Positions 18,055 through 34,844 of a stretch of DNA of 64,000 nucleotides are shown here, piece by piece. The stretch is from Arthrobacter gandavensis (GTDB lineage: Bacteria; Actinomycetota; Actinomycetes; Actinomycetales; Micrococcaceae): the NCBI RefSeq assembly GCF_009192735.1, contig NZ_VTFU01000004.1, forward strand, positions 310,001-374,000, in the 5' to 3' direction. The stretch's first letter is position 1. The number at the start of each line of letters is the position of its first letter. Below the pieces are notes generated by a model. The model saw only the letters and a list, made by a program, of their open reading frames with translations, was not told the origin of the DNA and searched no databases. The translations under genes were made by a program, and so were the position numbers.

Positions 18055-18131
18055 TACGAGACCGCTTATCTTTTGAATTAATCGATATGTAGAACCTGAA
18101 ACAACTTATCTTTCTCAGGAAGATCAGCGCT

Positions 18132-18148
18132 TGAGTATCGACTACTGC
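18132..18148. promoter_or_regulatory. Candidate operator, GAGTA-N5-TAC type (site 1)
   Basis: TGAGTA-TCGAC-TACTGC lies 78-94 bp upstream of the lipoprotein gene. The inner arms GAGTA and TACT match the better palindrome at 20060-20076 with the same five-base spacer; the outer bases do not. The surrounding 198-bp gap is AT-richer than its neighbours and also holds GAGTAA and TTACTC half-sites. Function is inferred from repetition. Confidence 0.4.
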
Positions 18149-18252
18149 CTTAAATGTTTTTCACTCTGCATCGGCGGAGTAAATTACTTGGTTTGGTTTT
18201 CGATTTACTCACTTCGCGGAAGCAGGCTGGAGCTGCTCGCCGGTGGCCGGAT

Positions 18253-19794
18253 TTAGTAGGCGCCAACAGGTCGGAACATTTGCGCCACCGTCCGCCAGAG
18301 GATGATGATGTCGCCGGCGAGGGACCAGTTCTCCACGTAGTAGAGGTCCAGCCGCACTCCGTCTTTCCAGTTCAGTTCGGAGCGGCCGTTCGTCTGCCAC
18401 ATGCCCGTGATCCCGGGTTTGATGTACAGCCGCCTGTGCACGCGGTTCTTGTATTGGTCCACCTCGCGCTGCAACGGCGGTCGCGGCCCGACGAGGGACA
18501 TATTTCCCAGAAGGACATTCCAAAACTGTGGCAACTCGTCCAGGGAGTACTTGCGCATCCAGCGACCCACGTCCGTGACCCGCGGGTCATGCTGCATCTT
18601 AAAGAGCACGCCACTGCCTTCGTTACTGTCCAAAAGGCCGGCGAGATCGTCCTCCGCGGTTTCCACCATCGAGCGGAACTTGTACATCAGGAACTTCTCA
18701 CCGCCGCGCCCCACGCGTTCCTGGCGGAAGATGACCGGCCCGGGGCTGTCCTTCTTGATGAGCACACCGAGGAGGATAAGCACGGGAAGAAGCACCAGCA
18801 GGGCCAGACCGGACATCACAATGTCCAAGGTTCGCTTCAGGACGTGGCGGGCACCCGTATACTGCGGCAGCTCCACGTGCATCAGCGGCAACCCCTCCAC
18901 CGGGCGGGAGTGGATTCGGGGACCGGCAACGTTGGTCAAGCCAGTTGTCAGGATCAGCTGCGTGGCGGACTCCTCCAACTCCCACCCCAATTCCTGAACG
19001 TAAGACGTCCCGCCCTTCATGGGACCAGCTACGATGACCGCGTCAGCCCGTGCCTGCCGGACCGCGGATACTACCGTGTCACGGTTTGCTATCACGGGGA
19101 TTAGCTGCCCGTTCACTGACAAGGAACCGGGCCTGTCCTGACCGGAGGTCAATGCAGCTCCCACAACCCGGTATCCGGATCCGGACTTCCGCTGAATCTG
19201 GTTCGCCACGTATTTGACGTCCTTGGCTTTGCCAAGCACAACTACTTTGAACAAATATCGCCCCCTCTTTCGCTGGGCCATAAGCCAGCGTCGAAGCATC
19301 CACCGACTGAGAATGAGCCCAAAGATCCCGGTGGGAAAGGCCAAGGCAAAGAAGCCTCGGGAGATGTCTATGCCAAAGACCAGACAAGCCATGGCCAGGC
19401 TCCCCAGGAGCGTGACGGTTGCACCCACCACCCTCTTGTACTCATCCACGCCATGACCCACGATTCTGGCGTCCCGGCTGCCGTATCCGGACAGGGCTGC
19501 TAACCAGAAAACAACAATCGCCGCCGAGATCACTGTGTACGGGACGGCCACGGGTCCGGCGTTCACTGAGGGCTGGGTCAGCCCGAACCGGGCAATGTGC
19601 GCCAGGACCATCACTGAGACGACCACCGCGGTGTCGAACGCCAGCAGAATTCTGCGGTAGCGGTTGGTCCATCTCAGGCTGTCGCTGGCCACCCTCCGAC
19701 TGGCAGGAACAAAGCTCCTGAAGTCGGGAAATGTAATGGGTGCGGTAGGAAAATTGAGGTCCAGACGGACCCCGGGATCTTTCAATTCAGTCAT
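18253..19794 (-). CDS. Polyprenyl-phosphate sugar-1-phosphate transferase (WbaP/EPS initiating enzyme)
   Basis: 513 residues. Four to five membrane segments and a Rossmann-like domain (LFKVVVLGKAKDVKYVANQI) precede the bacterial sugar transferase core from about residue 317. That core has KRTLDIVMSG, SPGPVIFRQERVGRGG, KFRSMV, a conserved SLDELPQFWNVLLGNMSLVG, then GPRPP and KPGITGMWQTNGRSE. The family transfers a sugar-1-phosphate from UDP-sugar to undecaprenyl phosphate, the first committed step of repeat-unit assembly. GAGGGG lies six bases before the ATG. The gene has its own 437-bp upstream region with several repeat elements, so it is probably a main control point of the locus. Confidence 0.95.
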   Translation of the reverse strand: MTELKDPGVRLDLNFPTAPITFPDFRSFVPASRRVASDSLRWTNRYRRILLAFDTAVVVSVMVLAHIARFGLTQPSVNAGPVAVPYTVISAAIVVFWLAALSGYGSRDARIVGHGVDEYKRVVGATVTLLGSLAMACLVFGIDISRGFFALAFPTGIFGLILSRWMLRRWLMAQRKRGRYLFKVVVLGKAKDVKYVANQIQRKSGSGYRVVGAALTSGQDRPGSLSVNGQLIPVIANRDTVVSAVRQARADAVIVAGPMKGGTSYVQELGWELEESATQLILTTGLTNVAGPRIHSRPVEGLPLMHVELPQYTGARHVLKRTLDIVMSGLALLVLLPVLILLGVLIKKDSPGPVIFRQERVGRGGEKFLMYKFRSMVETAEDDLAGLLDSNEGSGVLFKMQHDPRVTDVGRWMRKYSLDELPQFWNVLLGNMSLVGPRPPLQREVDQYKNRVHRRLYIKPGITGMWQTNGRSELNWKDGVRLDLYYVENWSLAGDIIILWRTVAQMFRPVGAY

Positions 19795-19894
19795 TGGAGC
19801 CCCTCAAGCCCAGAGCCATCCGAAGGGGCCGACGACGGCTGGGGGGAAGCCTTGGTCTCAAGAGGCTTCGACGCCGTCGACCCCGCTCGGGGGA

Positions 19895-19913
19895 CCGGCG
19901 CCGGAGGCGCCGG
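19895..19913. promoter_or_regulatory. GC-rich hairpin in the sugar transferase leader region
   Basis: CCGGCGCC and GGCGCCGG (19895-19902, 19906-19913) form a perfect 8-bp stem with a three-base loop. No T-tract follows on either strand, so it is not a classical terminator. It lies 100-119 bp upstream of the sugar transferase ATG and could be a 5'-leader structure or a weak terminator of the upstream regulator gene. Confidence 0.35.
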
Positions 19914-19928
19914 ATGATTGATCGCGGG

Positions 19929-20020
19929 CGAACAATTGGAATATGCGAAATATGTTCACTCTGGGAAATACCCGGGAAATACCGCTCCATTTATGTTCAC
20001 ATTTATTACCGCCGAACAAT
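19929..20020. repeat. Spaced GAACA/TGTTC repeats upstream of the sugar transferase gene
   Basis: Four copies of the pentamer GAACA or its complement occur at 19930-19934, 19953-19957, 19994-19998 and 20014-20018. The outer pair sits in CGAACAAT (19929-19936 and 20013-20020), 84 bp apart. The inner pair sits in TATGTTCAC (19951-19959 and 19992-20000), 41 bp apart. Two copies of GGGAAATACC (19963-19972, 19974-19983) fill the middle. The distances are close to whole helical turns. The stretch is clearly AT-richer than its surroundings and is probably promoter and regulator-binding DNA. Confidence 0.45.
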
Positions 20021-20059
20021 CAACACAACTAAGACTAGAAGGGGCGTATATCCCTGCCA

Positions 20060-20076
20060 CGAGTAATGCTTACTCG
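20060..20076. promoter_or_regulatory. Candidate operator, perfect 17-bp palindrome (site 2)
   Basis: CGAGTAATGCTTACTCG has 7-bp perfect arms around TGC. It lies 266-282 bp upstream of the sugar transferase ATG and about 155 bp beyond the stop of the last LAL regulator gene. It shares CACGRGTA-N5-TACYCG with the site at 29008-29024. Confidence 0.5.
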
Positions 20077-20231
20077 AGTCCCAACGGTGACTTCTCACTT
20101 TGCCGGAGATATACCTGCTACTACTTGGCTTGACCACATTCATCCAGGCGGTGAAGCCAGAAGTCAGGTGTGGGTGCTGGCTTGATTAATCTCCCGCAAG
20201 GCACTTTGCAGGACTATCGGGAGGGGCGTCT

Positions 20232-23042
20232 TTAATCCATGACCGCAGGGCTGACACCTGGTTCGAGCGCCAAGTAGGCCGCTTCCAGGTCCGCACGCCG
20301 GCTGATCCCCAACTTCACGTAAATCCGGTAGACATGGCCCTCCACTGTCCGTTGGGAAAGCGTGAAGTGCGCCGCCACGTCCTTGGTGCTGGCCCCGGCC
20401 AGAAGAAGGCCTATAATCTCGTGTTCCCGCCGGGTGAGCCGCACCAGGTGAAGCGAGGGGCTGAGGTAGGAGACGGTGACTCCTGCCAGCTCCCCGCGGC
20501 GGCGGCGCAGCTGCTGGATGAGGGCACGTTGCCGGCGCAGGTTGCCATGAGTGCCGTAAAACCGAATAGCGTGGCCGATGCTCTCTACTGCAATAAGGTA
20601 CTTCCGGTGCCGAACTGCCTCGTCCGCAGCAGCAACCATACGGTCAGGACTGCCCGATGCCACCGCCTCAGCGTAGGCATGAAGCGCTTGCGCCTCGCCG
20701 CCTTCGAAGACCGCACTGACCTCGACCAGCCTGCTGGCGTGCCGCAGGTCGCCGACTGCGAGGCACAACTCGAGGATGTCCTTCTCCGCGGCAAGGAATC
20801 CCTCAGCGCGTGCCTGTTCTGCAACTTCTGCCAGTTGTTCCGGCAGTTTCTCCGGTGCGCCCGCGTCGGAATCGGAGGAAGCGAGCGCTGCGGCAGCATA
20901 TGCCTGACCCACCAGCCAAAGCGGCCTCGGCCCGGTGTATCCGACACTACGCAGTTCCTTCGCGTACCTTGCTGTTTGGGCATGGTCCCCAACCACCGTG
21001 GAGGCGTAGCCGGCTAATCCCAACGCATACGGCAACATCATTTCGGGATCTGAGACCCGCAGGGCTTCCACGGCAGGGTGCAGGCGCTGCAGCCCTTCCC
21101 GCAACCTGCCCTGATGGATTTCCACCGCTCCTTCGAAGACTCCCATGGTGCCCCCATAGGCAATCAGGTACTGCGGCGGGGCACCCAGCTTGGCCTCAAG
21201 GAGACTCTCCAGTTCAGCGAATCGTCCACCGTGCAGCAGCGCCTGAGCATGCCGCACGAGTACTGCACCGCACTGTGTCTGGAGCTGTCCGCCGAGACGC
21301 CTGATCAGTTGGAGAGCCTGGTCCGTGTGCTCGAGGGCAGAGCTGATTTGTCCGTTCGAGACCAGGAGCTCCGCCAGTAAGCCATGAATGGCAACGCTCC
21401 CCCGGAATTCGGGGTTGCCGGACGCCAGTGAGGCATTAAGTCTGGCCAGTGCCGCGGCGTAGTCACCCCCCACCATCAAAGCGACGCTGCGCAGCAGTTC
21501 GGCGTACCCCGCAAAGGTGGACCCCGTTTCGCTCATACCGGCGCTGGGCGATGAGAGTTTGCCCGATGCGGCGCTCCAGGCGCCTGCAAGCTCTTCCAGT
21601 TCATGCCCGGGCAGGCCTGAGAGCTGATAGATGCGCGTCAGTGCCAGCGCCGCGCGGTTCAGCGTTTCGCCGTCGGGCGCCGGGGTTGGCTGCCCGAAGC
21701 CAAGGATGCCTTCCAACAACAGCCGAGCCTGCGCAAGGTCTCCGGTCTGGGCAGTGGCCACGGCGGTTTCGACCTTTGCCTGGATCAGGTGCCCTGCGCC
21801 GCGGACAGCGCTTCCAAAACGGCGGGCTTGCGCTGAGCGGGAAGAATCGTTGGCCTTTCGGGCAGCCTTGAGCAGCAGCTCATCCGGGACGATATCGCCG
21901 CAGTCAAGGCCCCACTCGATCCGTCTCAGCCAGGCTTCTTCTTCGAATGGGAACGACGGCGCGAATCCGTCAGTGTTTCGGGTGCCGATGCCCGTGGCTG
22001 CGCTGCTCCCGGCGAAGCTGCCGTCGAGCTCGGCCAGGACGCGTGAGCGGATGGCGGCGCTGCGGACAGTGGGCACAAGGGACCTGATGACCTCGGCGTG
22101 AAGCGGCTGGGACAGGCACAGAAGATCACCCATTCCCGGGCCGGAGTGCAGAAGCCCGTCGGCCATCAGGGCGTGGACCGGCGCTGGCCCGCAGACGCTG
22201 ACAAGAACGGAGCGGGGCAGCAGCTTGGCCAACGCCAGTGTCTCGAGGGCAGCGCGCTCCTCCGGGGTCCGGCTCGCCAGCTGGCCCTTGACCAGGTCCA
22301 CAACAGAAGCGTCCAGTCCGTCAGGTTCGGCTCGCAGGTACCAAGCCCCGTTGCCTTCGGCGAGTGTTCCCAGCCTGCGCGACTGGGCTAAGAGAGCTCT
22401 CAGGTACAGCGGGTTGCCGCCTGAGGCCACGGTCAGCAGCGCTGAGGTCGCCCGCAAAACGGGTCCACCCAAGACACCTTGGCAGACTTCATCGACAGCT
22501 TCCGCCGATAAGGCGCCGAGGTCGATGCGGGCCAGCAGGCCATCCCGGGCCAGCGAGAGCAGCTCGTGGATGCTGCGCGCACGGGGACGGGTCAGAACCA
22601 ACAGCCGCAACTCTCCGGACATTGCGAGCTGCGTCAGCACATGGCAGCTGGATTCATCGAGGTGGTGAGCATCGTCAACGACCAGCAGCGGCTGCAGACT
22701 GCCAACCTCTCCAATCCTGCGGAAGTGCCGGCGGATCGTGCGGAGCACCGCCAGCGGCGAGTCCATGTCTTGAGGCCCGGCCGACTCCAGGTAAGGAGAG
22801 AGCACACCGTACGGCATGCGGGACAACACCGGACTGCCATGGATGTAGGAGGCACTGACGATGCCGTCCAGCCGTTCGAGCACATGGTCAGCAAGCGCGG
22901 ATTTGCCCATGCCTCCAGCACCGACGATCACGGCTCCGCGCAGCCCCGGCTCGAGCAGCCGGGAGCTAACCTCCTGCACTTCCCTGTCCCGTCCCAGCAA
23001 CAGGGAGGATGGACCGCGCCCTTTCAGAGGGACTGTGCTCAT
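20232..23042 (-). CDS. LAL-family LuxR regulator (STAND ATPase), type I; last of five
   Basis: 936 residues. The Walker A motif GAGGMGKSAL is near residue 41, and Walker B LLVVDDAHHLDE keeps both acidic residues. A long helical, TPR-like middle region follows. The C-terminal LuxR helix-turn-helix contains LTRREHEIIGLLLAGAST, then QRTVEGHVYRIYVKLGISRR. LAL/MalT-type proteins are signal-dependent ATPases that oligomerise and activate transcription when ligand and ATP bind. The ATG overlaps the stop of the preceding type II gene (ATGA), so the two are made as a pair. The closest relative in the window is the 896-residue protein at 29079-31769, which shares a PYGxLxP segment and the GISRR end. 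The ligand is unknown. Confidence 0.92.
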   Translation of the reverse strand: MSTVPLKGRGPSSLLLGRDREVQEVSSRLLEPGLRGAVIVGAGGMGKSALADHVLERLDGIVSASYIHGSPVLSRMPYGVLSPYLESAGPQDMDSPLAVLRTIRRHFRRIGEVGSLQPLLVVDDAHHLDESSCHVLTQLAMSGELRLLVLTRPRARSIHELLSLARDGLLARIDLGALSAEAVDEVCQGVLGGPVLRATSALLTVASGGNPLYLRALLAQSRRLGTLAEGNGAWYLRAEPDGLDASVVDLVKGQLASRTPEERAALETLALAKLLPRSVLVSVCGPAPVHALMADGLLHSGPGMGDLLCLSQPLHAEVIRSLVPTVRSAAIRSRVLAELDGSFAGSSAATGIGTRNTDGFAPSFPFEEEAWLRRIEWGLDCGDIVPDELLLKAARKANDSSRSAQARRFGSAVRGAGHLIQAKVETAVATAQTGDLAQARLLLEGILGFGQPTPAPDGETLNRAALALTRIYQLSGLPGHELEELAGAWSAASGKLSSPSAGMSETGSTFAGYAELLRSVALMVGGDYAAALARLNASLASGNPEFRGSVAIHGLLAELLVSNGQISSALEHTDQALQLIRRLGGQLQTQCGAVLVRHAQALLHGGRFAELESLLEAKLGAPPQYLIAYGGTMGVFEGAVEIHQGRLREGLQRLHPAVEALRVSDPEMMLPYALGLAGYASTVVGDHAQTARYAKELRSVGYTGPRPLWLVGQAYAAAALASSDSDAGAPEKLPEQLAEVAEQARAEGFLAAEKDILELCLAVGDLRHASRLVEVSAVFEGGEAQALHAYAEAVASGSPDRMVAAADEAVRHRKYLIAVESIGHAIRFYGTHGNLRRQRALIQQLRRRRGELAGVTVSYLSPSLHLVRLTRREHEIIGLLLAGASTKDVAAHFTLSQRTVEGHVYRIYVKLGISRRADLEAAYLALEPGVSPAVMD

Positions 23043-25927
23043 TTCCGGGCTCCCGACTTATCGGCGATGACCTTGGTCAGTTCTCGCCTGCTGCCAACAT
23101 GGAGCTTCGCATAGACTTGGTACAGGTGCCCTTCGACCGTCCTCACTGAAATGTTCAATTCGGCGGCAATGGCTTTATTGCTCGATCCCGCCGCTGCCAT
23201 CTTGGCAATCGACCGCTCGCGAAAGGTCAGCGACCCGAGGTATTCCTCGACAGAATCAGGCCGCTCCGCTGTTCCCGCGCCCACCGTTCCGCGTCGACTG
23301 CGGTGGATGAACCGCACTGTAGCCCGATCACCCGCCCCCGAGGCAACAGCCAGTGCCCGTTCAGAGGCTTCCCGGGCAAAGAGCAAATGGCCCGTGGCTT
23401 CCCCCATCTCCGCCGCTTGGATCAGCAGCTGCGCATCGCAGGTGCCCACACCCTTGGCATACGTCTCGGACATCCTGGCGAACGCCCCCTGCTGGTGAGC
23501 GGCCACTGTCAGGATACGGTCCAGGTTATCCAGGTCCCCCAGCCGCACTGCATGCAGCAGGGACAGGAGTTCGTATGAGTAGGCGCCCCTCCTGTGGTCA
23601 TGAGCGGCTAGGTCGAGGAAGCGTCGGGCGGCCTGCGGAGAAGCCTGCGCTGCGTCGGCCAGTGCGGCGAAGTGCCGCGCGCTGCGGCGCAACGTCCAAG
23701 GACCGCCGTCAGAGGCCTTGCTGCTGATCTTCAGGTACAAATCCGTCCCTGCACTGTCATTCTGCAGCGCCAGACAGTAGGCAGCAGCCGCTGCCGCCAG
23801 CGGAATCAGGGACTCCGGTCCGCCCGCCCGAAGCTGTGCAACGGCTGGAACGAGGCATCCCAGCGCGCTTTCCGGATCACCTGCGTAGGCGCAGAGCAGT
23901 CCTTCGCCCAGCTCGCCGAACATTCCCGGGAAGTGCGTGGCCTGTACGTGCTGCCGCTGGGCAGTGAACAGCCTCAGGGCCTCGTGGAGTGCGCCGATGG
24001 CCAGGTAGACGTGGACTATCCGCGCCAATGATGTGCTTCGGTCCCATGTGGCGACGTCGGGCTCCATCAGGAGGCGCTCCAATTCCTTTGCCATTTCAAG
24101 GGCTTCATCTTGTCGGTCCGTCATGCCCAGCGCTTCGCAAAGCCATGAGCCAACTAGGACGCGGTAGCCTTTGTCTCGGACCGAAGCGCCGGCCTGCAGC
24201 GGGGCAAGAAAGGCGGCGTTTTCCAGAAACCGCCCGTGGTTCGAGTTGCATTCAGCACGGGCCAGTGTCAGATCGCGGCTCAGCACAGCGGCCTCCGTGC
24301 GGCCTATTGTTCCCGCTGTTGAAAGTTCGACCACGCGCTGTTCCGCCCTCTGCAGCAGTTCGTCATGTTTCTTGGCGGCACCGGGCGGAAGCTCATCAGC
24401 GGGCAGCGAACCCGAGAGGGCGCCGGTCGCGGCCATGCACAGCACCCGGTTTTCAGCGAGTAACAGTCGAACCTCCTGCGCCGGCGTGGCTTCCGTTCCC
24501 CGCCGTCGGTAACTCCTGAGAACCGCCAACGCAGCGCCATACTCGGCCCTGGTCATCCGTGCCGCAACGAGCTCGAGCACCGCCGAAGGGTCGGCGGCAC
24601 CGTCTTCCCGAAACGACAGGAAGCGGATTGCCTCCGCCGGATCCCCGCAGGCGTTGGCATCGCGCGCCCCGGCCACGGCTGCCTTGAGAGTCATCGGTTC
24701 TCCGCTGTCCAGGCGCCAAGCGGCCAGACGGGCCGGTTGCAGGACGGCTTCAGCCGGATCCTCTGCGAAAGGTCCAGATGGATTTGTTTTTGCACCCGAT
24801 GCCTGGATCGGAGGTGAAGCAGCGGCAACAGCCGAGCGCAACTGCTGGAGCAGTCGGCCGCGGTCCGAGGCATCGAGTGAGAGGCAGACGGCGTTGGCCA
24901 GCACGGCATCCCGGATTCGAACCCGAGGCACGCTATGCCTTTCCACAACCAGGATTCCCTGCTCCTGCAGGACATCCACTTCGACTGGGTCGGCATCATG
25001 CAGTGCTAGCCCCAAGGGCAGGGTGTCAGCAAGCGCCACGGTCCTCACCAGCGCCATTTGCTGTTCAGTCAATCCGTCCAGCCGGCCGAGAACAGATTCG
25101 GCAACGCGTCCTGCCGGTGCGGGGCGTTGCAGTTCCAAGACCCAGACCTGCCCACTACGCCGGAGCCTTCCGCTCTCTCTGTAGTCCTTGCATGCGAGGG
25201 TCAACAGGTGCGGGTTCCCACCTGTATGCCGGTGCAGGTCATCCACGGCAGCTCCAGAAACGGGCCCGGCGAGTTCAGCCGACACCAGCTCCGTGCTTTC
25301 CCCCAGGTCGAGGGGTCCCAAGTCCACACGAGAGAGGATGCCCTCCCGCCACAAGCCGGTGAATTCCGCGGGGGCACGGCTGAAGTCACGGAAGCAAGCC
25401 AAGAGTCCCGCGGTCCGGCTCAGGACCATTTGGCTTAGGGCCATGGCCGAGAACTCGTCGAGGTCCTCACCGTTGTCAACGGCCAGCAGAACGGTTCTGC
25501 CTTGGGCACGCTCTTGGATCAGCCGAGTTAGACCGCGCAGGATCAATACCGGGTGGGCGGAAACGTCGGAGTCCAGCTCGGACAGGAGGAAGGTCAGGGC
25601 ACCAAAAGGGGTGCGGCCTGAGAAGGCGGAACCACGAATGTGGACCACATAGGTGTCTGGGCTGCACTGCCGCAGCACATGATGGATCAGTGCAGTCTTC
25701 CCGCTGCCGGGTTCCCCCACCAGTATGCAGCCCGAGCCCCCGCCTGATGCCAGCCGCTCTTGGATTTTCCGCGATACTTCCCGCCGGCCGATGAAGCGGG
25801 GCGGTGCGGCCTGCTCCTCCCTCACCGCTTCCTCCGGACGCAGACCCTGGCCAAAGGCCGTGGCAGCCACGGAATCCTTCGAAGGGTTTGAACGGGAAAG
25901 ACGAGGCTGGTGAATGCTCTGGTGCAC
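23039..25927 (-). CDS. LAL-family LuxR regulator, type II ATPase with type I-like HTH
   Basis: 962 residues from a GTG start with a poor ribosome-binding site, so the exact start is uncertain. Walker A is GEPGSGKTAL (near residue 72). Walker B reads LLAVDNGEDLDE, so the second acidic residue is Asn. The segment RGSAFSGRTPFGAL resembles the 881- and 951-residue paralogues. The C-terminal helix-turn-helix, RTVEGHLYQVYAKLHVGSRREL, is closer to the type I pattern RTVEGH than to the DWH form of its ATPase relatives, giving a mosaic. It overlaps the downstream type I gene by four bases. A 234-bp gap with a candidate operator separates it from the preceding gene. Confidence 0.9.
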   Translation of the reverse strand: MHQSIHQPRLSRSNPSKDSVAATAFGQGLRPEEAVREEQAAPPRFIGRREVSRKIQERLASGGGSGCILVGEPGSGKTALIHHVLRQCSPDTYVVHIRGSAFSGRTPFGALTFLLSELDSDVSAHPVLILRGLTRLIQERAQGRTVLLAVDNGEDLDEFSAMALSQMVLSRTAGLLACFRDFSRAPAEFTGLWREGILSRVDLGPLDLGESTELVSAELAGPVSGAAVDDLHRHTGGNPHLLTLACKDYRESGRLRRSGQVWVLELQRPAPAGRVAESVLGRLDGLTEQQMALVRTVALADTLPLGLALHDADPVEVDVLQEQGILVVERHSVPRVRIRDAVLANAVCLSLDASDRGRLLQQLRSAVAAASPPIQASGAKTNPSGPFAEDPAEAVLQPARLAAWRLDSGEPMTLKAAVAGARDANACGDPAEAIRFLSFREDGAADPSAVLELVAARMTRAEYGAALAVLRSYRRRGTEATPAQEVRLLLAENRVLCMAATGALSGSLPADELPPGAAKKHDELLQRAEQRVVELSTAGTIGRTEAAVLSRDLTLARAECNSNHGRFLENAAFLAPLQAGASVRDKGYRVLVGSWLCEALGMTDRQDEALEMAKELERLLMEPDVATWDRSTSLARIVHVYLAIGALHEALRLFTAQRQHVQATHFPGMFGELGEGLLCAYAGDPESALGCLVPAVAQLRAGGPESLIPLAAAAAAYCLALQNDSAGTDLYLKISSKASDGGPWTLRRSARHFAALADAAQASPQAARRFLDLAAHDHRRGAYSYELLSLLHAVRLGDLDNLDRILTVAAHQQGAFARMSETYAKGVGTCDAQLLIQAAEMGEATGHLLFAREASERALAVASGAGDRATVRFIHRSRRGTVGAGTAERPDSVEEYLGSLTFRERSIAKMAAAGSSNKAIAAELNISVRTVEGHLYQVYAKLHVGSRRELTKVIADKSGARK

Positions 25928-26031
25928 GGTGAGACCCGATTCTGCCGGTGGCCCACCCTATCGATTTCCAGCTGGGTGAGCCTCGTGTTCAATGTCTGCC
26001 GCAAGAGTAAGAGAGAAAAACAGTAGTAACA

Positions 26032-26048
26032 CGAGTACCGGTCACCAG
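26032..26048. promoter_or_regulatory. Candidate operator half-site (site 3)
   Basis: CGAGTA-CCGGT-CACCAG has a perfect left arm, including the preceding CA seen in sites 2 and 4, but a right arm matching only four of six positions. It lies 105-121 bp upstream of the GTG of the 962-residue regulator. The same gap holds further TTACTCG and CTACTC half-sites near 26063 and 26095. Confidence 0.35.
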
Positions 26049-26161
26049 CGGAATACAGCCACTACTCAGGTTCAGAGTGTGCTGCGCACCACAATTACTC
26101 GAAACAGGTGCAGGGTATTACCCGGCATAAGGTGGTGTTGGGACGGGCTTGGCGCCGAGGA

Positions 26162-28870
26162 CTACTCGGATACGAGTGCAAGGGCGTTTCGTAAGTCGGT
26201 TCGGCCAGAGACATGCAGGCGCGCGAAGACCCGGCCCAAATGCCAGTCCACGGTCCTGGCTGAGAGATGGAACCGGCTTCCCAGCGCGGAACTTGTTTCC
26301 CCTGCAGCGGCCCGCAACGCCAGATCACGTTCAAAGTCGCTCAACTGGGCGAGCCCGTATTCGACGCTGTTCACCGGTGTCAGCGAACGAAACCCCTCAT
26401 ATTCCAGTTGCCGTGCCCGCCTCACCAGCGCGCGGGAGGCGCGTCCGGCGCCCAGAACGCGGGCGGCACGGGCCGCTCCATAACCCAGAGAGCTGTTTTG
26501 CTGCTTCAGTGCTGCCTCAGCGGCAAGGATCAGGGCCGTTACATCTTCGGTCAGGAGGCCACGTGCAAGCTGGCCGTACAGATATGCCGGTGCTCCATCA
26601 GCAGCATCTGCGGTGACCATAAGGTCCCGCATTGCGGCTCGGTTTCCCCGCATGGCGGCCGCTGAAAACCCGAGGAGTGCGTTGGGGATATCGCCCGTGG
26701 CCAGCTCATCCACGGCAAAACGGTGAAACTCAACCGCAGCCTGGTTCGGTTCGTCAAAGAAGGATGCCAGGATGCGGAAGTAACGCACCTCGGATGCCGA
26801 GCTGGGATCAGTGCGGCCGCCGCTGTTCTGCGGGGCCGGAAACTCCGCATCAGCGTTCGATTCCCGCCGCTGCAGAGCGCAGTATGCTGCAGCGGCCGCA
26901 GCCAGGGGCAGCGTGTCGTCAGGATCTTGGGATTCAAGTTGCGCCACCGCCGGTTGCAGAAATTTGATGGCTGCATCGCCGCGTCCTGCGAACGCATGGA
27001 CCAAACCGATGGGGAGTTCGATGCCAGTGGCTGTCGCCAGGCCGGAGCTTTCCCCGTTCTCCGCAGTTGTGAGAGAGAGGTCCAGTGCGGTTTCCAGCTC
27101 ACCGCACCGAATAAGCAGAAAAAAGAGGTGGTGGAAAAGCAGTTCGCGTGTGCGGGTACCCATGTGAATTCCGGCCGACAACCGGCCGCGGATTTTGGCG
27201 ACGAGTGAGACAGCTTCCGAGAACCGGCCGGCGGCAGCACATTGCTGCCCCCACCGGATACCCGCCCAGAGGCGGTTGGCGGGCGGGATGGCGGGATCAG
27301 CGAAATCATCTGCCAGTGATGATGGCATGCCGCTGAACCTGCGGTTCAGGGAGAGAACCTCGGCCCGTGCCAACGTTACTTCCACGCGGGGACCGGGGCG
27401 TGCACCGGTGTCCTCGGGCACTAGGCTGCCGGCCAGATACAGCAACTGGTCAGGGTCATCCCGGGACCCCGGAGTTCGGGCAGCACTCAGGGCACGGGCG
27501 ATGAGCACCCGCAGACTTAGTTCAACCCCGGCGCTCCCACTCTCCTCCACTGCTGCGAGAAGCCGATAGGCCTGAGAATGCCTGCCCTCAGCCCGCAGAG
27601 CATCGGCCTCCTCCGCAATCGCGGCCAGGGGGCGCGGTTCAGCGACAGCACGCGCATAGCGGAGGGCCGCATCGGTGTCCCCAACGCTGTTGGCCCAGTT
27701 GGCAGCGGCGACAGCGGTTTCGGGATCCGGCGCAACCCCCACCGACAGGGACCAAGCAGCCAGGCCGGCGGCAGTTTCTCCGGAGAGTGCCCGGGGATCG
27801 ACTATCCGTGTCACTTCGGACCACAGGTCCCGGCTCCGGCCGAAGGGAATCCTCGCTGCGATAGTGGCGGGCTGCAGATGCCAAGCTAGTCTCACGGGCT
27901 GGCCATGTCCGCCTTTAATGACTAGAACCGAAGCTTCTTCCAATGCATCGATGGTGTGGGCAGGCACAAGCTGCAGGACACTCTTCGCCGGAAGCTGGCG
28001 GCAGAGGGCCAGGATTTCGACGGCGCGCCGCTCGTCCGGGGTGAAGCGGCGCAGCACAGTCTCCACCCGTTCAGGCAATTCTCCCGAGTGGACCAGAGGA
28101 CCGGCCCATGTCCAGTAACCCCGACGGTGAATAAGCGAACCGGCGCCAATGTGGTCACGGCAGAGCAGGGAGGCCAAGAGTGGATTTCCCTTGCTGTGCC
28201 GCCACAGCATGAGCTGGGCGAGGCTGCTCAGCGGGTCCCCGGCACTCACAGCCAGCAACTCTCCGGTACGTGCCAGATCCAGCGGGGCCAAATCAACGCG
28301 CTTGAGCAAGCCGTCCGTCCATAGCCGGATGTATTCCTGATGACAACGAATAAGGTCGCCGCAGATGAGAAGGAGCGCCGCTGTCCCCCGGCGGCACAAC
28401 TCAGCGGTGACCAACACGCCAAGATCATCAATTTCTTCTGCGTTGTCTATCACCAGGATGATCCGCCTCCCGCCGGCTTGCTTAACCAGCAGCGTTTCCA
28501 GTGCACGCACCACCAAGACGGGGCTGGCGAGCTGTTTCTGGGGAAGGTCGCTGAGCAGCCATGCCAGCGCACCGTAGGGCGTCTGCGCCGAGAGGGTGCT
28601 CCCGCGCAGTTGAACGCTGAATCCGCCGTAGCGGCTTACACTCTCCCGGGCCAAAGTGGTTTTGCCGATTCCCGCGGCGCCCAGTATGACGGCGCCGGGA
28701 CCGTCGAGCGCATCGATCACCGCCCGCCGCACGGCATCGCGGCCATCATCGGCTTTTTGGGGGCCCTGCCGCCCGCCTCCACGGGCTTGTGTCAGACTCG
28801 CCGGACGCGGCTCATGGGCACTAGCGGCGACTGGCTCGGTGGATGGGCTTGGATGTTGAAGCGTGCTCAT
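26162..28870 (-). CDS. LAL-family LuxR regulator, type II, unpaired
   Basis: 902 residues from the ATG at 28870, which has AAGG eleven bases upstream; a longer frame up to 29017 lacks a ribosome-binding site and would run through the candidate operator. Walker A is GAAGIGKTTL. Walker B is ILVIDNAEEIDD (Asn at the second acidic position). The middle is Ala/Leu-rich helical repeats. The C-terminal helix-turn-helix has LSARTVDWHLGRVFARLHVSGR, where the usual EGH is DWH. It is most like the 881-residue paralogue at 31805-34420. It has its own upstream gap of 208 bp with a 17-bp palindrome and no tightly linked type I partner. Confidence 0.9.
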   Translation of the reverse strand: MSTLQHPSPSTEPVAASAHEPRPASLTQARGGGRQGPQKADDGRDAVRRAVIDALDGPGAVILGAAGIGKTTLARESVSRYGGFSVQLRGSTLSAQTPYGALAWLLSDLPQKQLASPVLVVRALETLLVKQAGGRRIILVIDNAEEIDDLGVLVTAELCRRGTAALLLICGDLIRCHQEYIRLWTDGLLKRVDLAPLDLARTGELLAVSAGDPLSSLAQLMLWRHSKGNPLLASLLCRDHIGAGSLIHRRGYWTWAGPLVHSGELPERVETVLRRFTPDERRAVEILALCRQLPAKSVLQLVPAHTIDALEEASVLVIKGGHGQPVRLAWHLQPATIAARIPFGRSRDLWSEVTRIVDPRALSGETAAGLAAWSLSVGVAPDPETAVAAANWANSVGDTDAALRYARAVAEPRPLAAIAEEADALRAEGRHSQAYRLLAAVEESGSAGVELSLRVLIARALSAARTPGSRDDPDQLLYLAGSLVPEDTGARPGPRVEVTLARAEVLSLNRRFSGMPSSLADDFADPAIPPANRLWAGIRWGQQCAAAGRFSEAVSLVAKIRGRLSAGIHMGTRTRELLFHHLFFLLIRCGELETALDLSLTTAENGESSGLATATGIELPIGLVHAFAGRGDAAIKFLQPAVAQLESQDPDDTLPLAAAAAAYCALQRRESNADAEFPAPQNSGGRTDPSSASEVRYFRILASFFDEPNQAAVEFHRFAVDELATGDIPNALLGFSAAAMRGNRAAMRDLMVTADAADGAPAYLYGQLARGLLTEDVTALILAAEAALKQQNSSLGYGAARAARVLGAGRASRALVRRARQLEYEGFRSLTPVNSVEYGLAQLSDFERDLALRAAAGETSSALGSRFHLSARTVDWHLGRVFARLHVSGRTDLRNALALVSE

Positions 28871-29007
28871 CGGGAACCTTAACAATTGACAGCGCGCTTT
28901 GCGCGGCTGGGGATTCGGCCGGCTAATTTCCTGAGAACTTGCTGACCCTGCAGGAAACAGCCCCTCGAGGTTCACCCCAACGCTAGGCTCTTGGCCCGCC
29001 GGCAGCA

Positions 29008-29024
29008 CGGGTATCACCTACCCG
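29008..29024. promoter_or_regulatory. Candidate operator, 17-bp palindrome (site 4)
   Basis: CGGGTA-TCACC-TACCCG has perfect 6-bp arms and a five-base spacer, preceded by CA as at 20058-20076. It lies 138-154 bp upstream of the ATG of the unpaired type II regulator gene and 55 bp beyond the end of the preceding one. Confidence 0.5.
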
Positions 29025-29078: not shown

Positions 29079-31769
29079 TCATTTCTGGCCGTGATGGGTC
29101 AGGGCTTCCTGTTTCAGGTCTTCCCGGCGACTAATTCCGAGTTTCTCGAAGGTGCGGTAAATATGGCCCTCGACGGTTCGAACGGAGAGGAAAAGCCGCT
29201 CGGCGATTTCAGCGTTACGGTAGCCCTGCACCACCAACGCCGCAATGTCGCGCTCCCGCCGAGTGAGCTTGGGGACCCCATCCTGCTGCTGCCGTGCATC
29301 GGACTGGCCGTTCTTCTTGTTGAGCGTTCGCTGAACTCTGGCAAGGGCAGCCCGGTCTCCACCCGCCCTTGCCAGCCTCATGGCTTCCTCACGGCACCTT
29401 CCGGCCAGGCGTGCCCAACCCGGTTCCACCTCGCCCCCCGCGATCCGCAGAAGCAGCTCAATGTCTTCATCAAGAAAGGCCCTTGCAATCAGCGCCGCAG
29501 TCTCCGCATGCTGGCCCTCGAAGTCCCCGGTTATCTTCACCAGCCTGCTCAGCCCATCCAAATCTCCAAATGTCAGTGCCAACAGCCTTAGTTCAAGCTC
29601 CACGGCAATGAATCCCGAGTCCTCGGCCACATCAATAAGCCCCCGCAACCCTAGAGGTATATCCCGCTGCATAGACAGCACCGACCTGGCGCAAGCGGCG
29701 AACCCACGGGCAAGCAAGCGGTCCGCGGCCGATCCCCGCGGACCGCGGGACAGTCCCTCTGCCAGGAGGTCCTCAGCCGATTTCCGGTGCCCCAAAGAAG
29801 CTGAAACAAAGGCGCCCAACGCCAGTGCCAGCGGAAGCTGCCCCTCATTGTCGTGAGTTCGCAGCCCTTCGACGGCGGCGGACAGATGAGTAAGTGCTGC
29901 CTCCGGATTGTCGTTTCTCAGATTCATGACGGCAACTGCCAATTCAACCACCCCCGCAACCCGAACGAGGGCACCGAAGACTCCGGCTGTGCCGTGCTGC
30001 ACCGCGGTTTGAACGCCGTCCCAGTCCCCCAGCCACAGCAAGGCAGCCAAATGGCGGTGGAGGACAAATTGGTAGTAGGACATAAACCGGTGTCCACCGT
30101 TGTCCAGCACATGCATCGCGTGCCGACTCATTTCGTAGCTGGCACTGACCCGGCCAGTGACCGTCAGGATTTCGGCGAGCAAAGCCTCCGCAACAAGAAC
30201 GGCTTCATCATCCCCAGCCGCATAGGCGTCTTCGCGGATAAGGCTAAGTTCCTGTTCCGCGGGCTGCAGTTCACCAGCGGACACCCGGCCCATGAGGGAC
30301 AGCAGTCGTGCGCCGCGGCGCGAAGACAGCAGGTCAGCGGTCAGCTCGGCGTCCAGGTTCCCATTCGCTTCGATGCGGTCAACGCCGGCGAGCCAGTCTT
30401 CGGAGATGGCCGCCAGCCCGGAAATCTCCGACTGCTCCTGTAGATCCAGTTGGACCCGGATCAAGACAGCCATCTTTAGGGTAGTCAGGTCGGCTGCGGC
30501 CCCGGTGACGCCATCGATGAGTTCCCAGGCTGACGTCGGGTCGCCGTCCTGGTAACAGGCCCGTGCTGCCTGCACCCGTGCCGCCAGCGAGTATTCAGGT
30601 CCCTTCACCGCCCCGGCGGCACGAAGGGCACCAGCGCTGTCGAAGGCATTATTGGCCCGGTAAGCAGCCTCCACAAGATCGGCGTCGCTTACCTGGACAC
30701 CGCAGTCCAGCGACCAGCTCACCCACCGGAGGAGGTTTTCCCCGGTGGCACCGGAGGCTGCACCGGAGGCCAGCAACCGCTGACGCAGGCGTGCGCTGCG
30801 GGCCGCTGGAACCAGCCTGCGCACCACTTCTCCATACAGGGGGTGCATAGGCTGCAGGAGGCGGGGCGACCCGGAAGTAATCTTGACCAGTTTCGCTTCA
30901 GTCAGCGCGTCTACTGCCCGATGCAGCCCAAGGTCAAAGGCAGCGGAAGCCGGCAGCGGCTCCGCCAGTGAAATGATTTCCAAGGCCTCACGCTCATCTT
31001 TGGTCAGGCCGGATAACTGTGCCCTGAGCAGATCACCCAGTCGACCGTCCGACGGAAGCATCTGGTCATGCAGGAGCCAAACACCGTGGCGTTCCGCAAG
31101 GCTGCCCACCCGTGTAGTTTCCGAGAGCAGAGCCAGAACCAACATGGGGTTTCCCCCGGATGCCCGGGCAAGATCGGTGCTGGTGCCGGTCAGCACAGGC
31201 CCGCCAAGCACTTGGACACAAAGTTCATGCACCTGATCATCCGTCAGTGGCTGCAACTCGTGGCGCGACAAGACGCCTTCCCAGACTTGATTCGAGATTC
31301 CGGGGGGAACATCTGTCAGCCGACGGGCTAACAGCAGGATGCGGATCTGGGCCGATGCAACCAGTTGCGCGAGCAGGTCCGCTGTGGCTTCATCGAGGAA
31401 ATCTGCGTCGTCCACGATCAACAGCGGCGCTGCGGGAGGCTCAGCCGGGTTTCCCCTGTCCAGGTAAAGGCGCCTCAACAGCGAACGCATGACTGCAAGC
31501 GGAGAATCGCTGTCCTGCGGCTCCACATCGAAGATCAGCGGGGCCAGTGCTCCGTACGGTACATGCGAGAGCGAGGAGCTGGTGTGGATCCTGTGCACGG
31601 GAAGGCTTCCGTCCAACTTTGCCGCAAGAACACCTGCCAAGGCGCTCTTTCCCATCCCTGCGTCCGCCACCACGACAGCGCCGTGACCGCCCGGACGCAG
31701 GACGCTGTCCAGCACGGCTTCCATGACCGCTTCCCGGCCAACGAACGGCCGCGCCCAAAACGCCTGCAT
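29079..31769 (-). CDS. LAL-family LuxR regulator, type I
   Basis: 896 residues. The ATG is preceded by AGGGGG at good spacing. The Walker A region reads ADAGMGKSAL, so the first Gly of GxxxxGKS is Ala. Walker B LLIVDDADFLDE is intact. A helical middle region is followed by the helix-turn-helix LTRRERDIAALVVQGYRN, then VRTVEGHIYRTFEKLGISRR. It starts 35 bp after the 881-residue type II gene and repeats the type II-type I arrangement seen at 20232-25927. It should bind DNA as an oligomer after ligand sensing. The ligand is unknown. Confidence 0.92.
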   Translation of the reverse strand: MQAFWARPFVGREAVMEAVLDSVLRPGGHGAVVVADAGMGKSALAGVLAAKLDGSLPVHRIHTSSSLSHVPYGALAPLIFDVEPQDSDSPLAVMRSLLRRLYLDRGNPAEPPAAPLLIVDDADFLDEATADLLAQLVASAQIRILLLARRLTDVPPGISNQVWEGVLSRHELQPLTDDQVHELCVQVLGGPVLTGTSTDLARASGGNPMLVLALLSETTRVGSLAERHGVWLLHDQMLPSDGRLGDLLRAQLSGLTKDEREALEIISLAEPLPASAAFDLGLHRAVDALTEAKLVKITSGSPRLLQPMHPLYGEVVRRLVPAARSARLRQRLLASGAASGATGENLLRWVSWSLDCGVQVSDADLVEAAYRANNAFDSAGALRAAGAVKGPEYSLAARVQAARACYQDGDPTSAWELIDGVTGAAADLTTLKMAVLIRVQLDLQEQSEISGLAAISEDWLAGVDRIEANGNLDAELTADLLSSRRGARLLSLMGRVSAGELQPAEQELSLIREDAYAAGDDEAVLVAEALLAEILTVTGRVSASYEMSRHAMHVLDNGGHRFMSYYQFVLHRHLAALLWLGDWDGVQTAVQHGTAGVFGALVRVAGVVELAVAVMNLRNDNPEAALTHLSAAVEGLRTHDNEGQLPLALALGAFVSASLGHRKSAEDLLAEGLSRGPRGSAADRLLARGFAACARSVLSMQRDIPLGLRGLIDVAEDSGFIAVELELRLLALTFGDLDGLSRLVKITGDFEGQHAETAALIARAFLDEDIELLLRIAGGEVEPGWARLAGRCREEAMRLARAGGDRAALARVQRTLNKKNGQSDARQQQDGVPKLTRRERDIAALVVQGYRNAEIAERLFLSVRTVEGHIYRTFEKLGISRREDLKQEALTHHGQK

Positions 31770-31804: not shown

Positions 31805-34420
31805 TTAGCGCAGAACCTCGCCGAGTTCCGAGCGCCCCGAAACATGCAGCTTGTCGAAGATCTTACCCAGATGCCAATCAATCGTGCGCGGCGACAGATG
31901 CAGTTCGGCACTGATTTCTTTGCGTGTCGCACCTCGTGCCGCGCGGTGAGCGAGGTCCGCTTCGAAGGGAGTCAGCGCTGCCATGCACGACTGGATGGAG
32001 TTGGCATCACGCAAGTTACGGAAACTGCCATGCTCAAACCTGAGCGCAGTTCGTGCCTGGGCCCGGCTCTCGCTCCCTTTATGCCCCTCGAGGAGCTGAA
32101 GGGCTGCCCGTGCTGCCGTGTTGCACAGCAGATCGTTGCCGAGTTCATCCGCAAGGGCAGCCGATTCCAGCAACAGCGATGGGCTCTTCTGTTCGAGTCC
32201 GGAGCCGTAGCAGTAGAGCGCCGACGCCCAGCGGCCGTTGGCTGAGGCCGCGGCAGTGACAAGCTCCTGAACCGCCGCATGGTCACCTCTGCCGGCCGCT
32301 CTGGTCAAGCAATAAAGGGCGATGGGAACCATGCCCGTCTTCAGGCTCTCCCGGGCTATGGAACGCAGTTCGCCGCACAGTTTTTGCGTATCTGTGGCCC
32401 ATTTGGCTTCTAACCGCAGCACATGCGACATCAGCCGTATCAGTTCCTGGGGGTGGTGCCTGAAGTCCGCTGCATCCGGTACCGAGCCTTCGACAGACTG
32501 CGTGTTCCCCTGAACGGCCCTGACGCTCGTGGATAGAGCCTGCACGAGGGGCAGCACGTCGAAAGGGTCCTGGACCCTGATCTGGCTTGTCGCGCTGGTC
32601 AGTGAGGCAAGCGCTTTGTCCCCTCTTCCGGCGAGTGCATGGATTACTCCGGTCACGACATCCCCTGCGCTGCCGCGGAAGGCACGGCGGTTGGCACCGT
32701 CCACAAGATCCGTTACCAGTTGTTCAGCAAGCTTGTGCTCCCCGGCGGCAACCACCGCCTGCATGATCCTGATATGCGCGGAATGCATGGTGTTGTTACC
32801 CAGAGTGCCCTGAAATTCATCCCTAAAGGGTTGCACCACGGTGAGCATTTTTTCGAAGTCACCGGACATGGCGAGGTATTGGGCCTGCAAAGCCAAGGCC
32901 TGCATGCGAACCGGCGCGCCCAGAGTTCCGTCCTCCACCAAGGATCCCAGTTCCTCGGGGACCTCTTTTGGGCGCCCGGCATCGATGGCCAGGGCAGCAT
33001 GCGTCATCAGTACCCTCGCCTCCCACATTCGTTGGTCGGTCCTGCCTGCGTAATCCTGAATAGTGCAGGAAATCCTGCGCAGGATCTCAGCCGGGTCCCC
33101 GCGATGGGGCAGAAACTGGAGCAGCGCCGCTTTCCTCAGCATGATTTCCACCCAGCTTTCCGGTTCCTCTGGATCCGCCGAAGACAAAAGACAATCGAGT
33201 GCGAGAAGTGCGCCCAAATAATCTCCCGTTTCCGTCAGCGCCTGTACCTCGGCCAGCAGCATTGCGTGATTCAGCTTTTCCGGGGGGACTGCCCGAATGT
33301 ACCGCAGCGCAGACTCGGGGTCGTCGTACGCCATTGACAGACTGGCCGCACGGCTGGCAGTTTCCGGATCCAAGGTCCCCTGGCTGGCCAGGGTCCACCG
33401 GGCAAAACGGATAACGGCGCCGGGACGGAGCATCTTCGGATCCAGCAGTACCGATACTTCTTCCCACAGCTCCCTGCTGCGCCCGGGTGGTATCGCCGCA
33501 GCAATGGCTGCGGCTGTGCCGGCGCTGGCGAGGTGGATTGCCTGATCGGTTATCTCCACGACGCGTGCTTCTTCCAGCGAATCAATGGTTTCGGCCGGGA
33601 ACAGTTTCAGCACTACAGGCAGCGGCAAATCGGAGCACAGGGCCAAAAGTTGCACAAGCGACCTCTCGTCCGAGGGAAGCCGCTTGAGCCGGGCAGTAAT
33701 GACTTCCGCTGCCTGCCCCGAGAATACCAGCGGCTTGGCAAGCACCCAGAAGCCGTCCTGACGAACGAGTGAACCCTCGCCGGCCTGGTCCCGCGTCAAG
33801 AGGGTAATGAGCTGTGGATTCCCGCCCGAGTGACGCTGCATCGATTGGGCAGCCATTGTCGAGACCGGTCCGTCCAGAAGGTTCTGCATGAGTTCCCGGG
33901 TCTCTTCCATGGCCAGCGGCGTAAGATCCACGCGGTGCAGCAGGCCTTCAGTCCACAGTGCCAGAAGGTCCGGGGCCGAATCGGAAAAGTTTTCGGCTGC
34001 GGCAAGGACCCGTGCACCCGATCTTCGAACCAGCTGTGAAACCGCCATGCCCGTCCAGTTGTCGAGCCACTCAACGCTGTCCAGCAGCAGCAGGATTCTT
34101 TTTCCGCCGGCACGCTGAGCCAGCAGGGAGTCCAGCTCATGGAGCAGCTGCTCGGGGCGCGCTTCAACGTCCTCGGTCAGTTCGGAGATTAGCCAGGCCA
34201 GTGCGCCGAAGGGAGTTTTGCCGGACACCCGGCTTCCACGGATGGTCACCGGGTAATAGGCCGGGTCGGCCGCGGCTGCCCGGATCAGCGCAGTCTTTCC
34301 GATGCCGGCCGGACCGATCACAACGGCACCTGCCGCTGCCTGCAGACCATGTGCAAGCTCGGCCAGAGCCTCGTCCCGGCCGACCAGGCGATCTTGAACT
34401 ATTTCCGTTCTCGACAACAT
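31805..34420 (-). CDS. LAL-family LuxR regulator, type II; first of the array
   Basis: 871 residues from the ATG at 34420; an in-frame start ten codons upstream (34450) and a GTG between them are alternatives because no start has a well-spaced ribosome-binding site. Walker A GPAGIGKTAL is canonical. Walker B is ILLLLDSVEWLDN, with Ser at the second acidic position. The helix-turn-helix LSPRTIDWHLGKIFDKLHVSGR matches the DWH class. It is the promoter-proximal gene of the five. Its upstream region holds an inverted repeat at 34567-34588 and, further away, a small-RNA terminator that should block read-through from pth. Confidence 0.9.
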   Translation of the reverse strand: MLSRTEIVQDRLVGRDEALAELAHGLQAAAGAVVIGPAGIGKTALIRAAAADPAYYPVTIRGSRVSGKTPFGALAWLISELTEDVEARPEQLLHELDSLLAQRAGGKRILLLLDSVEWLDNWTGMAVSQLVRRSGARVLAAAENFSDSAPDLLALWTEGLLHRVDLTPLAMEETRELMQNLLDGPVSTMAAQSMQRHSGGNPQLITLLTRDQAGEGSLVRQDGFWVLAKPLVFSGQAAEVITARLKRLPSDERSLVQLLALCSDLPLPVVLKLFPAETIDSLEEARVVEITDQAIHLASAGTAAAIAAAIPPGRSRELWEEVSVLLDPKMLRPGAVIRFARWTLASQGTLDPETASRAASLSMAYDDPESALRYIRAVPPEKLNHAMLLAEVQALTETGDYLGALLALDCLLSSADPEEPESWVEIMLRKAALLQFLPHRGDPAEILRRISCTIQDYAGRTDQRMWEARVLMTHAALAIDAGRPKEVPEELGSLVEDGTLGAPVRMQALALQAQYLAMSGDFEKMLTVVQPFRDEFQGTLGNNTMHSAHIRIMQAVVAAGEHKLAEQLVTDLVDGANRRAFRGSAGDVVTGVIHALAGRGDKALASLTSATSQIRVQDPFDVLPLVQALSTSVRAVQGNTQSVEGSVPDAADFRHHPQELIRLMSHVLRLEAKWATDTQKLCGELRSIARESLKTGMVPIALYCLTRAAGRGDHAAVQELVTAAASANGRWASALYCYGSGLEQKSPSLLLESAALADELGNDLLCNTAARAALQLLEGHKGSESRAQARTALRFEHGSFRNLRDANSIQSCMAALTPFEADLAHRAARGATRKEISAELHLSPRTIDWHLGKIFDKLHVSGRSELGEVLR

Positions 34421-34566
34421 TCCTACAACCACGCCCCCAGGCATCCCCACAAATACTGCTTCAACAACTCCGGCTAAACGGAAGTTCCTGCGGTTCTCCC
34501 CCGCGGGACGCCCTCATTTGGTGCTGGTTTTTGCTCAATACTGTTTTCAAAGCATGGTTATGGTGC

Positions 34567-34705: not shown

Positions 34706-34844
34706 AACATAAAAAACCGGACACCCGCTGTCCAATGACAGCCGGTGTCCGGTTATCGTATAAGGGACCGGCGCCGGGATGGGGGTGGCCCAGTCTCGGA
34801 GGCCTCCCGACGCCGGCCCCAGCTTTGCATGCCCGAGGGCATGC
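34706..34844 (-). ncRNA. Candidate structured small RNA between pth and the LAL array
   Basis: On the minus strand a promoter-like sequence is followed by three hairpins. First, GCATGCC-CTCG-GGCATGC (34827-34844). Second, a 16-bp stem joining 34805-34820 to 34764-34779 with GGCC-GGCC pairing in its loop. Third, a terminator hairpin ending in T6. The 16-bp stem contains two G-U pairs if read from the minus strand, but two A-C mismatches if read from the plus strand, which favours a minus-strand transcript of about 139 nt. No open reading frame explains it. It lacks the SRP tip and tmRNA or RNase P signatures. It could instead be a structured pth 3' region. Confidence 0.5.
34711..34754 (-). terminator. 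Intrinsic terminator of the candidate small RNA
   Basis: AACCGGACACC (34715-34725) pairs with GGTGTCCGGTT (34744-34754), and inside it GCTGTC pairs with GACAGC around CAAT. On the minus strand the stem is followed by TTTTTT and more T-rich sequence. This is the strongest one-way terminator in the window. Confidence 0.8.

Follow-up and report, generated by a model that had tools for sequence, protein, structure and literature searches.

The locus considered here lies in the genome of Arthrobacter gandavensis (NCBI RefSeq assembly GCF_009192735.1, contig NZ_VTFU01000004.1, positions 310,001 to 374,000), and all coordinates refer to this 64-kb stretch of DNA, hereafter the window. Its reverse strand carries an array of five genes for LAL regulators, LAL5 to LAL1 in reading order, followed by a sugar transferase gene and a polysaccharide cluster. 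We describe a 17-bp palindrome, here called the operator, that recurs in three gaps of this locus at a fixed distance from a -10-like promoter box, and a structured hairpin RNA associated with the same array. The operator sites and their boxes are as follows:

20060..20076, minus strand: operator O1, on the gene strand CGAGTA-AGCAT-TACTCG and then TG, with the sugar transferase ATG 266 bp downstream
20032..20037, minus strand: TAGTCT, the -10 box of O1, 22 nt past O1
26032..26048, minus strand: operator O2, on the gene strand CTGGTG-ACCGG-TACTCG and then TG, upstream of LAL2-LAL1
26004..26009, minus strand: TACTCT, the -10 box of O2, 22 nt past O2
29008..29024, minus strand: operator O3, on the gene strand CGGGTA-GGTGA-TACCCG and then TG, upstream of LAL3
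28980..28985, minus strand: TAGCGT, the -10 box of O3, 22 nt past O3
18253..19794, minus strand: sugar transferase gene (Bac_transf and CoA_binding_3 domains), the first gene behind O1
18132..18148, minus strand: weak and unproven candidate site upstream of the lipoprotein operon, on the gene strand GCAGTA-GTCGA-TACTCA, with TAAGTT at 18103-18108

An earlier note on this DNA had pointed out four of these palindromes and placed all of them between genes, which we confirm, O3 being intergenic provided that LAL3 begins with the ATG at 28870 and not with the GTG at 29017 of the mechanically called open reading frame. On the gene strand, O1, O2 and O3 share a longer layout, missed by the note, that consists of the palindrome, a TG (seen on the plus strand as a preceding CA), 20 bases and a TANNNT -10 box, so that the box stands exactly 22 nt from the right arm each time. 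A search for this full layout on both strands of the window matched O1, O2 and O3 only, and a simple scan found no TTGACA/TATAAT-type promoter in the three gaps. At each of these sites an inverted repeat thus replaces the -35 hexamer at a fixed distance from the -10 box, which is the arrangement of a class II operator. The shared layout also bears out the proposal of the earlier note that one motif links the sugar transferase promoter with those of LAL3 and LAL2-LAL1.

The site at 18132 had been given equal standing, which it does not keep. The layout matched in 0/3 lipoprotein gaps, although a similar site whose TAAGTT/TACGTT-type box stands at 23 nt is present in all three genomes in which the lipoprotein gene was found beside the transferase. 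We therefore treat it as a weak site with an uncertain role at the lipoprotein operon. The polysaccharide cluster downstream of the LALs encodes glycosyltransferases, a Wzz-like protein, a cytidylyltransferase and a large PKD/laminin-G protein of 1879 amino acids (10567-16206, minus strand) with seven PKD and two laminin-G-like stretches.

Conservation was assessed in a genus set of 29 Arthrobacter genomes that includes the present one (G000). The gene order LAL5-LAL4-LAL3-LAL2-LAL1-transferase was seen in the 28 other genomes with exceptions: LAL5-LAL4 lies elsewhere in G001, G003, G011 and G014 and on another contig in G023, and a close transferase match is missing in G007 and G016, the former retaining the operator site despite the lost transferase. 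In Arthrobacter sp. ATA002 (G022, L085) the transferase gene and several of the LAL genes appear to be split into two frames, either by decay or by sequencing error. The layout precedes the sugar transferase in 27/27 gaps, LAL2-LAL1 in 27/29 and LAL3 in 18/28, or 19 when the present genome, whose site fell beyond the gap limit, is counted. This establishes that the operator is conserved in orthologous gaps, the check that the earlier note had called for. Upstream of LAL5 the layout is absent from all 29 gaps, and the suggestion of the note that a LAL controls its own array is not supported for LAL5-LAL4. No match was found on the reverse strand of the tested gaps, and the mean number of layout matches in 200 shuffles of the gaps was at most 0.04. 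A stricter first version of the test gave 18/27 for the transferase, 21/29 for LAL2, 17/28 for LAL3 and 0/29 for LAL5. When all offsets of the gap alignments were ranked by arm conservation, the site came first in five of the seven scored sets and second in a further one; in the remaining set it was 41st of 432, probably because of a conserved leader there. The middle-clade LAL3 and LAL2 sets have no site in the reference sequence and were not ranked.

A look-alike of the operator also stands at a gene remote from the array. The best remaining match in the genome differs from the consensus at one position and is intergenic, 71 bp upstream of the open frame of a glycosyltransferase that carries DUF3492, a domain of PelF:

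position 955870 of contig C4 of the same genome (L098, with L198-L208): operator look-alike of the PelF-like gene, with a TCTACT/TTTACT-type box at 22 nt

The PelF-like gene is present in 11/29 genomes of the genus, and upstream of all 11 copies at least nine of the 12 arm positions are found together with a T..A.T box at exactly 22 nt (shuffles: mean 0.26, maximum 3). At least 11 of the 12 arm positions agree in seven of the 11 (none in shuffles). The site is weak in two genomes (L200, L205) and reads CAAGTA-N5-TACTCGTG in G017.

Outside the genus we searched for the core CRRGTA-N5-TACTCGTG, which occurs in 53/245 Micrococcaceae genomes and 13/32 genera. In an order-level search it was found in 12 of 297 genomes, 11 of them among the 24 family members; the other families of the order had it in 1/273 genomes, in a coding-like frame and without a box. 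From the 76 operator rows outside the genus, 31 loci were read, and 24 of these have a -10-like box at 22 or 23 nt, while three lie in coding-like frames (17 and two, respectively, among the first 21, and seven and one among the further ten). Coding-like frames were judged by third-position GC, a rough test that in a laxer version gave three instead of two among the first 21. None of 28 control loci has a box and 23 lie in coding-like frames; two of the original 30, from the same genus, were dropped.

The operator was further compared with the distribution of LAL2-like proteins, for which only three candidates were scored per genome. Among 228 non-genus genomes, 44 have the operator, 41 have a LAL2-like protein and 24 have both (Fisher p = 2.6e-10, kinship ignored). 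In the non-genus genomes having such a protein, 14/35 operator rows lie within 15 kb of its gene compared to 3/24 reversed-control rows, a modest contrast (33 control rows were used, including all 24 from these genomes). The genes behind ten non-genus sites encode four class-V aminotransferases, a sugar transferase, an enolase-like enzyme, a SARP-type response regulator, an Hpt protein, an F5/8C protein and one protein without a match. One genus (g10, L209-L223) has up to six operator copies per genome, before aminotransferase, SARP-type response regulator and Hpt genes, and its operator network is wider than that of Arthrobacter.

Which protein might read the operator was approached through the recognition helices of the five LALs:

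20232..23042, minus strand: LAL1, AAA_16 and GerE, recognition helix SQRTVEGHVYRIYV, best single candidate binder
23039..25927, minus strand: LAL2, AAA_16 and GerE, recognition helix SVRTVEGHLYQVY, candidate binder
26162..28870, minus strand: LAL3, AAA_22 and GerE, recognition helix SARTVDWHLGRVF, of the other specificity class, start at ATG 28870
29079..31769, minus strand: LAL4, AAA_16 and GerE, recognition helix SVRTVEGHIYRTF, candidate binder
31805..34450, minus strand: LAL5, AAA_16 and GerE, recognition helix SPRTIDWHLGKIF, upstream region without the operator layout

All five proteins are about 900 amino acids long and have an AAA and a GerE match above the curated cut-offs; an autoinducer domain was not matched in any of them. 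Their helices fall into two kinds, RTVEGHxY in LAL1, LAL2 and LAL4 and RTVDWHLG or close forms in LAL3 and LAL5. NarL residues at these positions of the recognition helix contact bases, and for this reason the W of the DWH class matters. The LAL1 helix is identical in 27 of 28 genus genomes (G022 was dropped for its split genes). Among the 14 GerE (LuxR-type) proteins of the genome, EGHxY occurs in LAL1, LAL2 and LAL4 only; besides LAL3 and LAL5 there are nine small proteins, none of the EGH kind. In other genera, every helix read at the eight loci that have a site is of the EGH type, mostly EGHxY, and at none of the five loci with a DWHLG-type LAL did the stretch read contain a site. This points to LAL1, LAL2 and/or LAL4 as the binder. 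The guess of the earlier note that a helix-turn-helix protein of this array binds the motif is reasonable, and the class of candidates is now smaller; LAL1 would be the likeliest binder at the transferase promoter.

The LALs mostly occur as neighbouring A-B pairs (best match LAL2, LAL3 or LAL5 versus LAL1 or LAL4; window 20232-34450 and loci L172-L191), where position decided the name of the first LAL in G004 and G015 and of any third LAL whose best match was LAL5. The pairing suggests a paired function. As an idea only, a LAL heterodimer would fit an operator with a fixed right and a variable left half.

Taken together, we consider it likely that the palindrome is a class II activator operator, with the RTVEGHxY LALs (LAL1, LAL2 and/or LAL4) as its candidate binders; the binding itself is inferred. 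The general form of the operator is RRGTA-N5-TACYCG-TG, followed at 22 or 23 nt by a -10-like box, with a variable left arm and a right arm that is nearly fixed in most clades. With the box placed at -12 to -7 in the usual numbering, the palindrome would be centred near -43 in place of the -35 hexamer, and from there a bound dimer would therefore touch RNA polymerase. In the mechanism that we propose, a dimer of LALs with the RTVEGHxY helix would bind the operator and raise the expression of LAL3 and LAL2-LAL1 in a positive feedback, and as output the LALs would switch on the polysaccharide genes of the cluster and the distant PelF-like glycosyltransferase. LAL5-LAL4 would stand outside the feedback loop and may be its input. 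The transferase transcript would then pass through the conserved hairpin RNA described below, probably an added control after initiation.

Rigid spacing between operator and box is typical of activators, and the 22/23-nt distance argues against a repressor site, where a factor bound near -43 would block the polymerase and the LALs or another factor would shut the promoters off. The lack of TTGACA/TATAAT-type promoters in the three gaps points the same way, being what an activator-dependent promoter predicts. We regard repression as quite improbable, even though the site overlaps the expected -35 region and negative regulation by a LAL, SCO6993, has been reported (PMC9628970).

Several observations weigh against an activator operator read by LALs. 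The genomes of the genus set are related and hence not independent, and it was on this same set that the layout pattern, which allows either -10 form, had been tuned. The layout is missing from 10/28 LAL3 gaps, one of them that of the present genome owing to the gap limit; the middle-clade site has diverged and was missed. CRRGTA-N5-TACYYG occurs in three places in the 3.72-Mb genome, two of them window sites and the third in a coding-like frame, and its reversed control occurs three times per strand. A longer form with up to two mismatches gave 15 genome rows versus 62 for the reversed control, and the reversed control of the TACTCGTG-type core was found in 88 of the 245 Micrococcaceae genomes, mostly in coding DNA, so the raw counts show no excess. 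Not all helices at loci with a site are EGHxY, as L172 and L173 each show one EGHVH helix and L186 one EGHLS, and two of the five DWHLG genomes (G104, G145) carry the operator on another contig. Finally, a LAL2-like protein at E ≤ 1e-60 is missing from 20/44 non-genus operator genomes, and one 79.7-bit copy of the hairpin RNA (L280, at 8127) has no operator found upstream.

The counts would favour the view that the palindromes are chance matches picked after the fact, and the bare palindrome is indeed not over-represented. The pattern of the earlier note, with two mismatches allowed, has 91 matches in the window versus 51.8 expected, mostly inside genes by position, and the genome-wide counts showed no excess of the bare form. 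Raw genome-wide counts are uninformative here; the reversed pattern, in addition, is a poor count control, as it lies mostly in coding DNA. It is the complete promoter layout, together with its conservation, that rises above chance: in the genus set, the layout has 76 matches in 51,521 bases of gaps versus one in 418,140 bases of array coding DNA (both strands). Chance is contradicted by the conservation in orthologous gaps, the fixed spacing and the recurrence in other genera and at the distant target, and we find this explanation hardly tenable.

The operator genomes without a LAL2-like protein raise a different question, namely whether a real operator is served by an activator outside the LAL group, such as a response regulator that controls both the LAL and the polysaccharide genes. 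Such an activator would be in keeping with the SARP-type response regulator and the Hpt protein among the downstream genes elsewhere, and with the nine other GerE proteins of the genome. None of these nine has a helix of the EGH kind, however, the operator and LAL2-like proteins co-occur as described, and the sites adjoin LALs even where the neighbouring target differs, all of which leads us to view a non-LAL activator as rather unlikely. Where a LAL2-like protein is missing, the operator may be served by a more divergent LAL or by some other regulator.

The alignment of transferase leaders contains a second conserved block (the G022 row being empty), which is a 72-nt RNA. Its fold is a long hairpin that has a C-rich bulge and ends in a GAGAC loop. 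The window holds two copies:

19822..19893, minus strand: structured RNA copy 1, in the sugar transferase leader
34761..34829, minus strand: structured RNA copy 2, between pth and LAL5, with a terminator-like hairpin and T-run within about 45 nt (about 34710-34760)

A model of the RNA (R1), built from 11 leaders and searched against the genus at E ≤ 0.01 with 150 first-look candidates scored per genome, such that weak extra copies were possibly missed, found the RNA in all 29 Arthrobacter genomes, with two copies in 28 and three in one. One copy stands upstream of LAL5, and the other in the transferase leader or, in the distant clade, in the LAL3 leader; every copy found lies at a LAL array or at its split-off LAL5-LAL4 part. 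Covariation is strong, with 17 of 23 pairs changed on both sides and 96.5% of cells paired, compared to 28-60% in slid controls and 0/500 shuffles. This set comprised 83 matches (61 sources searched, 59 distinct sequences) in an alignment fitted to the model; in the unfitted alignment of 11 sequences, both-sided changes occur in only 2/23 pairs. In Rfam 15, only a tRNA reaches the gathering threshold in the window, and the sole hit at E ≤ 1 in 19700-20250 is CRISPR-DR20 (E 0.83), far below gathering; the L180 copy of the RNA has no Rfam match either.

A strict terminator test was positive after eight among the 78 copies listed, of which seven are LAL5 copies of the near clade, where the terminators are strong. 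None follows the LAL5 copy in G007 or, by the same test, in the distant clade; weaker hairpins with T-runs were seen by eye after the RNA in L077 and L180. The RNA is probably a leader element that acts after initiation, and it may do so by attenuation, antitermination or masking of the ribosome site.

To relate the RNA to the operator beyond the genus, we used 37 loci fetched with the LAL1 protein, 33 of them from Micrococcaceae. The RNA was found in 32, and the operator layout lies ahead of it in 32, at a distance of 102-195 nt (median 139); L280 is counted here by its 41-bit RNA copy at 2010. These 32 loci comprise 10 genus-set genomes and 22 from outside the genus, some of which may repeat genomes of the family search. 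The layout is present in each of the 22 non-genus Micrococcaceae loci of sufficient length, and one 3.2-kb fragment (L295) has neither operator nor RNA. The four loci from other families gave no layout match and one weak reverse-strand RNA match (26.7 bits).

Since RNA and operator often travel together, the RNA could be the conserved feature, with the palindrome kept only as its promoter background. This is contradicted by the LAL2 and PelF-like promoters, where no RNA was found behind the operator, and by the RNA copy at LAL5, which lacks the operator layout, and we judge it very improbable. A broader extension of the activator reading is that the operator and the hairpin RNA work as a single regulatory module in the LAL arrays of Micrococcaceae, in which a heterodimer of an A-type and a B-type LAL would start transcription at the asymmetric site and the hairpin, as a new RNA class, would decide the expression of polysaccharide and regulator genes by one of the three mechanisms named above. 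We put this forward tentatively, as a serious possibility somewhat short of even.

Our literature searches, mostly without subscription journals, did not find the operator or the RNA described. As far as they go, the operator is of a known kind, a LuxR-family activator site, not described for this LAL group, and the RNA is the more novel part. Proposing the operator, its -10 spacing, its near and distant targets and the likely reading helix jointly makes LAL binding directly testable, and the RNA after the operator offers a second layer of control over the polysaccharide genes.

Several known systems resemble parts of this arrangement. The LALs share with MalT and other LAL regulators a length of about 900 amino acids, an N-terminal AAA-type ATPase, a C-terminal GerE domain and genes adjoining the likely targets. 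They differ in the 17-bp palindrome and in the array of five, whereas the MalT box, GGGGAKGAGG, is short; with at most one mismatch it has 10 matches in the window versus 17.4 expected and none in the three gaps, and was rejected as the operator. PMC9628970 cites the MalT box as GGA[TG]GA. The same paper describes SCO6993, a LAL of Streptomyces coelicolor, as binding palindromes in target promoters, as our candidates would, but as repressing antibiotic regulatory genes, and adds that prediction of a consensus site for it was not possible.

GerE, DevR and NarL are among the sequence matches of the DNA-binding domains, which are thus related. Operators of the NarL/DevR/GerE type have TAC-containing half-sites, and the NarL/LuxR analogy drawn in the earlier note holds for the TAC core. 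It does not extend to orientation, as the half-sites here face the other way, with the TAC ends inward and a 5-base spacer, nor to the NarL 7-2-7 operator, TACYYMT-N2-AKRRGTA, which is at chance level (one match with two mismatches in the window versus 0.94 expected, inside the transferase gene). The LuxR box is an inverted repeat at about -42.5 with GTA/TAC at its inner ends. Its length is given as 20 bp in PMC9628970. The inner ends and the class II position are shared with the operator, whereas the outer bases differ and the LALs here have no autoinducer-domain match. The EAR and LoaP-type elements are leader RNAs of polysaccharide operons, and the hairpin RNA is likewise a structured RNA in such a leader; in contrast to them it has no Rfam match, and it also precedes regulator genes.

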